Origin: a virus
Direction: 5' to 3' (one strand)
IMG/VR virus record: IMGVR_UViG_3300026519_000005
Location: 1-38,186 of that record
Length of the DNA: 38,186 bases
Shown: positions 2,243 to 3,057 of the stretch, one piece after another
How the letters are laid out: every line of letters begins with the position of its first letter
Position numbering within the stretch: the stretch's first letter is position 1
Made by a program: the position numbers and the translations under genes
The notes under the pieces: generated by a model
What the model was told of the DNA's origin: nothing
Seen by the model: the letters and a program-made list of their open reading frames with translations, nothing else
Database searches by the model: none

Positions 2243-2293
2243 TGCAGGATATGGATTCGAACCAAACGATAAGCACCAACTGCCTATCCTGCA
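2243..2293 (-). ncRNA. tRNA-like element lacking an anticodon arm
   Basis: On the minus strand: a 7-bp acceptor stem (TGCAGGA at 2293-2287 with TCCTGCA at 2249-2243), then U8-A9 as in tRNA. A D-arm follows, with a 3-bp stem (GGC/GCT) and the consensus loop AGTTGGT. Five nucleotides (TATCG) then lead straight into a T-arm with loop TTCGAAT and one U-U mismatch in the stem. The T-arm abuts the acceptor strand. Total length is about 51 nt. The 17-nt anticodon arm is absent and no CCA is encoded. It could be a decayed tRNA, a tRNA mimic, or a module of the larger structured RNA. Confidence 0.6.
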
Positions 2294-2390
2294 ATTTCCT
2301 ACAGATAGAGGATAACTAACTGTAGGACACTGATACCAAGTGAGATTATTCTACTTTTAGAAGCTTGCTCACAAACAGCGATTTTTTTAA

Positions 2391-2454
2391 GGGATAGTCG
2401 GGTTGATGTCCCGAGATGTTGCTTTGAAACACCACCATCAACCTACACTATCCC
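2391..2454 (-). ncRNA. Bistable hairpin / tRNA-like fold
   Basis: The outer stem GGGATAGT/ACTATCCC is perfect (8 bp). Inside, GGTTGATG (2401-2408) can pair with CATCAACC (2436-2443), or TCGGG (2398-2402) with CCCGA (2410-2414), but not both. In the second form, read on the minus strand, a 5-bp hairpin with a 7-nt loop abuts the 3' strand of a 7-bp closing stem, as a T-arm does in tRNA, and an anticodon-arm-like hairpin (GTGTT/AACAT, 7-nt loop) can form beside it. Confidence 0.45.
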
Positions 2455-2593
2455 TATGTTTTTACAACCTATCCTCGTTAGAGGACATATAGGTTGCATA
2501 AATTTTGAAATTATTTTGTTTTTCGGGTTAAAAGCTGTGCTGCACCTTTAAAAATACAGCACAGAACCTTTAACAAAAATTATAATCCCATGG

Positions 2594-2640
2594 ATCAGCG
2601 TCAGGTGTCGCTCCTGCTGGGCATCTTTTGCCACGCTGAT
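2594..2640 (-). ncRNA. Three-way junction, tRNA-like with CCA
   Basis: A perfect 8-bp closing stem (ATCAGCGT/ACGCTGAT) encloses two hairpins, CAGG/CCTG with a 7-nt loop and GGCA/TGCC with a 5-nt loop, with no unpaired linker at either outer joint. On the minus strand the T-arm-like hairpin abuts the 3' strand, and the next bases are CCA. Like the 2243-2293 element it has no anticodon arm. Confidence 0.45.
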
Positions 2641-2668
2641 GATTAAACTCTACACGCTCTATATCTTG

Positions 2669-3016
2669 CTATAAATAATTAACTTTTGCTTCTGCTATCT
2701 TACTCGCAAGTGATTGAATATCAGTACGCCAATACATTCTTGGCTTACCCTCTTTAAACTTAGTTATCAATCCTTTTTTAATGTACTTACTAATGATTCT
2801 CACGTGATAACCACTCTCATTTATTCTTATGCCTAATAAAAGTGCCACCTCGCGGTCGTTTATCCAAGGACTGACTACCCCTTTGCGTTCGATCGCTTGA
2901 GCTAGCTGAGCGACAGCTTTCGACATAGCGTTCATTTGTTCCATGTAGGGCTGCATGAAGGCTGCCATAGCTGCTAAATCCACCGACTGTTCTATATTCT
3001 TCATATCTGCGCTCAT
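2669..3016 (-). CDS. HTH / excisionase-like DNA-binding protein, 115 aa
   Basis: The start is taken at ATG 3016 (MSADMKNIEQS); the longer frame begins at a TTG inside a hairpin. The first half is helical (AAMAAFMQPYMEQMNAMSKAVAQLAQAI). The second half, from about residue 52, has WINDREVALLLGI...RIISKYIKKGLI, resembling helix-turn-helix domains of excisionases and small phage regulators. It lies between the Cro-like gene and the structured region in the early operon. A role in excision or early control is inferred from domain type and position. Confidence 0.55.
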   Translation of the reverse strand: MSADMKNIEQSVDLAAMAAFMQPYMEQMNAMSKAVAQLAQAIERKGVVSPWINDREVALLLGIRINESGYHVRIISKYIKKGLITKFKEGKPRMYWRTDIQSLASKIAEAKVNYL

Positions 3017-3033
3017 GATTTTGCTTTTAAATA

Positions 3034-3057
3034 GCGAGCCAGCCAAGACTGACTCGC
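3034..3057 (-). promoter_or_regulatory. 9-bp hairpin before the HTH gene
   Basis: GCGAGTCAG pairs with CTGGCTCGC around a 6-nt loop. One pair is a G-U wobble only on the minus strand, pointing to the leftward mRNA. It lies 17 nt upstream of the chosen ATG and could act in translation control. There is no U-tract. Confidence 0.4.

Follow-up and report, generated by a model that had tools for sequence, protein, structure and literature searches.

An anticodon-armless tRNA-like element in a phage genome and its possible role in ending a structured RNA

The tRNA-like domain of tmRNA encloses a long mRNA part, that of YrlA is joined to a Ro60-binding module and lies in a Ro60 operon, and mascRNA of MALAT1 is a tRNA-like structure in which a long non-coding RNA terminates and which is cut by RNase P. 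Excerpts of two tmRNA studies describe a tRNA-like end without an anticodon (PMC2481249, PMC3985003). As far as these excerpts go, the element reported here shares this end but differs in being 51 contiguous nucleotides. Furthermore, the tmRNA covariance model found no match in the window, the whole stretch of 38,186 bases of an IMG/VR virus record that we analyzed (Rfam gathering score; E 10 for positions 1900–2700). The element has the tRNA-like 3' end in common with mascRNA, but mascRNA is eukaryotic and cleavage of the window element is putative. With YrlA, in the excerpted description, it shares the tRNA-like domain, whereas the Ro60-binding module and the Ro60 operon are features of YrlA. 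Among phage RNAs, GOLLD and ROOL are presented in excerpts of PMC12286853 as large structured RNAs whose function is not known and which lie near tRNA islands. Elements lacking the anticodon arm are found 3' of GOLLD (loci L143 and L316) and of ROOL (L365 and L402); the RNA predicted upstream of the window element matches neither. A feature labeled "tRNA-OTHER, Undet" in Polaribacter phage Danklef_1 is armless and belongs to the same class, again in a Bacteroidota phage. Unlike the window element, it has intact stems and an 8-nt linker and lies directly before a gene, with no large RNA seen upstream. The literature searched, which covered few subscription papers, contained no description of a class of anticodon-less phage tRNAs.

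The window encodes matches to an integrase, a terminase, a head maturation protease, and a tape-measure protein, as well as a holin. Given these matches and a terminase 37% identical to that of Polaribacter phage Leef_1, the source is likely a temperate Bacteroidota phage. No relatives of the window were found by protein, nor by DNA among the phages searched. A DNA search of 395 Bacteroidota genomes returned four weak matches of 24–67 nt, which resembled chance or AT-rich matches and were rejected, as was the single match, not tRNA-like, to a pattern for window-like D-arms. On the minus strand, a 125-aa ORF, a non-coding stretch, the tRNA-like element, and a 429-aa ORF follow one another (table 1).

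Table 1. Features of the element and its surroundings, listed in the order in which they are read on the minus strand (element parts from 2293 to 2243)
Feature	Position	Strand	Basis
Tyrosine integrase of the phage (context)	4819..5988	-	phrog_1 / phrog_216
Upstream ORF, 125 aa, phrog_5238 (function not assigned)	2669..3046	-	Profile match
Putative structured non-coding RNA	2294..2668	-	Fold z, no Rfam match
Hairpin directly 5' of the tRNA-like element	2298..2326	-	MFE fold, inverted repeat I4
Anticodon-armless tRNA-like element, 51 nt	2243..2293	-	Sequence reading, descriptor, covariance model R1
Acceptor stem 5' strand, TGCAGGA	2287..2293	-	7/7 pairs with 2243-2249
U8-A9 (TA)	2285-2286	-	Descriptor
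D-arm, GGC-AGTTGGT-GCT, 3 bp including one G-U	2272..2284	-	Descriptor
5-nt joint TATCG replacing anticodon arm and variable loop	2267..2271	-	Descriptor
T-arm, TTTGG-TTCGAAT-CCATA, one T-T mismatch	2250..2266	-	Sequence reading, descriptor
Acceptor stem 3' strand, TCCTGCA	2243..2249	-	Sequence reading
Downstream ORF, 429 aa	637..1926	-	Weak HTH match under Pfam cut-off

The initial annotation had described U8-A9, a consensus D-loop, a TTCGAAT T-loop, a 7-bp acceptor stem, and a 5-nt joint, and we found all of these on the minus strand. Compared with a canonical tRNA, the acceptor, D-arm, and T-arm are present with the elbow consensus, and only 4/5 pairs form in the T-stem. The anticodon arm is missing, and ARAGORN reported no tRNA for the element. 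Rfam gave no match to it at the gathering score, and none at E 10 within 1900–2700. The base following the acceptor 3' strand, position 73, is C, and CCA is not encoded after it. With its closed 7-bp acceptor, D-arm, short linker, and T-arm, the element fits the recurrent armless class described below; C48 and a linker of 8–11 nt, common but not universal in that class, are absent, position 48 being G instead of the usual C.

The resemblance to a tRNA was measured in two ways. A descriptor (7/7 acceptor pairs, T-stem of at least 4/5, GTTCRANYC, closed D-arm with an A[AG]..GG loop, linker of at most 17 nt) had 2243–2293 as its sole site in the window, no site in 400 dinucleotide shuffles, and one across the other phage loci scanned (1.02 Mb). 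A covariance model, R1, built from 23 other elements with the window excluded, scored the element at 24.9 bits (E 6.8e-6), and the next site at 12.1 bits. Since ordinary tRNAs also receive high scores, R1 measures tRNA likeness alone, and the absence of the arm is read from length. The model is also unusable for prevalence, because 118/118 Bacteroidota genomes match it, at tRNA length (about 72 nt) among the matches listed. Together, the descriptor and R1 rule out a chance origin at the level of sequence. The earlier proposal of a tRNA-derived element without an anticodon arm, able to form an elbow, is supported, and we regard the element as a real, tRNA-derived variant of tRNA mimicry.

The non-coding stretch upstream is predicted to be strongly folded. 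Including the element, positions 2230–2668 reach −142.1 kcal/mol versus −103.1 (sd 6.2) for shuffles (z −6.3; 0/100 as good). In the MFE fold, a long closing helix (2582–2598 with 2330–2349) encloses several arms. Minus-strand windows of 130 nt gave z values of −6.1 and −6.9, and the plus strand gave −5.4 and −3.8 at the same places. No Rfam family, GOLLD and ROOL included, matched the stretch (gathering score; E 10 for 1900–2700). It may be a large structured RNA outside the Rfam families, which would end in the tRNA-like element, 4 nt past the last hairpin. Two strong inverted repeats lie downstream of the element (1943–1979 and 2097–2125), the second of which is terminator-like on the plus strand.

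Armless elements recur in phages. Viral contigs (at least 120 stretches in the second scan) and genome contigs (113 stretches) were scanned with a pattern in which the D- and T-loops are fixed and the acceptor is free. In the first pattern scan, most short matches were ordinary tRNAs whose anticodon stem mimicked the D-loop; matches with CATA were Met tRNAs and those containing N were gapped MAG tRNAs. Among the matches listed from the viral scans, 96 are distinct and 76 have a closed D-arm. The acceptor forms 7/7 pairs in 51 of these 76 and 6/7 in 9 (60 together), compared with 1.2% and 3.3%, respectively, for shuffled acceptor partners. On genome contigs, the D-arm is closed in 48/53 distinct N-free matches, with 7/7 acceptor pairs in 13 and 6/7 in five; many of the others come from a different chromosomal class, the Bacteroidota tRNA-like arrays. 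The descriptor gave 112 matches (101 distinct), of which 68 were kept after leaving out N-containing matches, duplicates, and ten loci by eye (L027, L135, L161, L168, L215, L254, L290, L375, L392, and L398), and these were reduced to 43 representatives below 80% identity, window included. As the descriptor requires 7/7 acceptor pairs, covariation there is partly by construction, and the acceptor count of the pattern scan is the unselected test.

Across the representatives, linker length peaks at 8–11 nt and the last linker base (C48) is C in 39/43. G15 is present in 43/43, at a place where the descriptor pattern demanded A followed by A or G in most. Three pairs of phages, 98% alike inside, show compensatory acceptor changes and are still armless (L181/L201, L192/L216, and L185/L256). 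The evidence of compensation rests on these named pairs and not on the totals for all relative pairs (187 two-sided, 109 one-sided, 204 broken), which are not clean, the Band_7-linked chromosomal class being mixed in. Acceptor pairing, the linker and C48 preference, and the compensatory acceptor changes thus indicate, from sequence comparison, that structure rather than an anticodon is kept in this class. The class is more interesting than the divergent single copy of the window. ARAGORN missed the armless elements in the loci tested. In the P335-type Lactococcus phages (42 matching records), a 60-nt version occurs whose linker contains a tiny hairpin; in Lactococcus phage 63301, this version is located after the endolysin gene. 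These 60-nt elements (L193:2960–3019, L400:2561–2620, and L401:2561–2620), in which a 4-bp mini hairpin stands for the anticodon arm, are mostly unannotated among the matches listed. Two viral contigs holding armless elements also carry tmRNA-like genes, alpha and beta (L130:13239–13552 and L209:2632–2938), which match the permuted tmRNA model as well.

Some of the elements are found at the end of giant RNAs. In Streptococcus porci (L143 and L316), the element begins 3 nt past GOLLD, and in Lactobacillus xujianguonis (L365 and L402) ROOL has it at its 3' end; in a single case (L247), about 50 nt separate it from a Pseudomonadales-1 RNA on its 5' side. Among 26 Streptococcus phage records with GOLLD, nine were fetched, and in every one GOLLD is closely followed on its 3' side by a tRNA or a tRNA-like remnant: tRNA-Phe, tRNA-Ser, a TTA "stop" tRNA, or, in two, a 112-nt degenerate form; four of the nine remnants were judged by eye to be degenerate and Leu-like. 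The position 3' of GOLLD is thus taken across phages by full, degenerate, or armless tRNAs. In the 112-nt degenerate form (L405 and L411), an extra T-arm-like insert lies between the acceptor strands. Many other armless elements are placed just after a gene. The neighboring genes encode late transcription activators, terminases, portal proteins, and endolysins, with few of each among the 68 and 63 proteins scanned.

RNase P processing is the simplest reading of these data, because the elbow and the acceptor are kept and the elements lie between a structured RNA, or a gene, and the next part. We therefore propose, with a probability of roughly 45%, that the window element is a tRNA-derived, non-decoding element that punctuates a structured non-coding RNA, by means of host RNase P, in an operon of a temperate Bacteroidota phage. 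Its anticodon arm would have been lost because the element does not serve in decoding. Once transcribed, it would be recognized by host RNase P through its acceptor, T-arm, and elbow, and a cut at its 5' end would both define where the upstream RNA ends and part this RNA from the downstream mRNA. It might also recruit the CCA-adding enzyme and affect RNA stability. Bacterial RNase P favors U at position −1. In the 43 representatives, base −1 is U in 20, against a background of 26% (p 0.0025), and base 73 appears unconstrained (A16 C11 G11 T5), both of which fit an RNase P processing signal. Because base 73 is unconstrained, aminoacylation is unlikely as a function common to the class. The suggestion of the initial annotation that the element caps a larger RNA is the best supported of its three options, given the folded stretch directly 5' and the comparable elements 3' of GOLLD and ROOL.

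Several observations count against such punctuation. Viral records holding an element contain GOLLD in 1/50 and ROOL in 0/50, and an armless element follows 1/6 ROOL loci. According to an excerpt of PMC7567579, the ~800-nt RNA of ICP1, a phage without tRNAs, is its most abundant transcript, and no tRNA-like element was found for this RNA. Upstream of the 67 elements measured, fold z values are no more than moderately low (median z −1.48; below −3 in 15/67); downstream, the median z is −0.88, with 13/68 below −3. The position of many elements right behind a gene, and the lack of any relative of the window RNA in the searches above, also weigh against it. The general form of the proposal is that anticodon-less tRNA-like elements are widespread in phages of several phyla, are under selection, and cap RNAs including the nanocage-forming GOLLD and ROOL, the window adding a new large RNA. 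We hold it tentatively and somewhat short of even odds.

The element could instead be a decaying tRNA pseudogene, from which the anticodon arm was deleted and whose sequence is drifting. This is unlikely. The full tRNAs, the "stop" tRNA, and the degenerate or armless forms that occupy the same place in GOLLD phages speak for decay, and the T-stem mismatch and missing C48 of the window copy point the same way. For the class, however, decay is disfavored by acceptor pairing retained in most unselected matches listed, by compensatory changes between relatives that are all armless, and by the linker length and C48 preferences. The relic envisaged by the earlier reading is therefore disfavored as an account of the class but may apply to the divergent window copy. 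Fragments of tRNA genes left by integrated elements are discussed in an excerpt of PMC9897764.

Rather improbable is a stand-alone small decoy RNA that would bind a tRNA-binding host factor, such as RNase P, the CCA-adding enzyme, a T-arm modifying enzyme, EF-Tu, or a tRNA-cutting defense nuclease. The parts retained here are exactly those that such enzymes read. NCCA is encoded in 4/43 representatives (p 0.0045), and one armless element (L150) lies within an array of eight tRNAs. Conversely, 39/43 are without an encoded CCA, base 73 is free to vary, and some elements abut large RNAs.

More doubtful still is a plain stem-loop that might serve as a terminator or stabilize an mRNA, and whose likeness to a tRNA would be coincidental. 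The predicted MFE fold of the 51-mer is indeed a longer hairpin at −18.6 kcal/mol, versus −12.2 kcal/mol for the tRNA-like fold, and several further hairpins lie nearby. This preference of 6.4 kcal/mol counts against the window copy, as do its T-stem mismatch and missing C48; across the representatives, the tRNA-like fold is at most 2 kcal/mol from the minimum in 26/43. A coincidence is nevertheless contradicted by the shuffles and the R1 score, and a terminator by the absence of a T-run after the element. Terminators downstream of the elements showed no enrichment (3/43).

Very improbable is a part of an attachment site that the phage would have copied from a tRNA gene of its host. In favor of this origin, the phage has a tyrosine integrase, such enzymes often use tRNA genes, and an excerpt of PMC10865867 describes attP cores that overlap the 3' half of tRNA genes. 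Against it, the element retains both halves of a tRNA, 2.5 kb separate it from the integrase, and the window holds no second copy of at least 10 nt of the element.

On Bacteroidota chromosomes (L315, L319, L321, L328, L337, L344, L389, and others), we observed arrays of tRNA-like pieces that resemble permuted tRNAs, in the order T-arm, acceptor 3' strand, short loop, acceptor 5' strand, D-arm, and so on. They are upstream of a gene for a Band_7/SPFH protein of ~364 aa (Pfam for L315 and L319), and in L319 the preceding gene resembles, by eye, the end of a Ro60/TROVE protein. These arrays are possibly Y RNAs. That the window element is likewise the tRNA-like module of a Ro60-bound, YrlA-like Y RNA is suggested by the arrays beside Band_7 genes and by the tRNA-like domain of YrlA, as given in an excerpt of PMC7790460, but is highly unlikely, as it has no Rfam Y RNA match and the window proteins searched (10 + 4, a subset of the window ORFs) included nothing that resembled Ro60.

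Tools for tRNA detection miss or mislabel armless elements, as with ARAGORN in the loci tested and the "tRNA-OTHER" label in Danklef_1. If punctuation by RNase P is correct, it would offer a testable answer to the question of how the 3' ends of giant phage RNAs originate. Phages would then use the elbow of tRNA without decoding, and the armless elements would be minimal substrates, provided by nature, of RNase P and of other enzymes that read the elbow.
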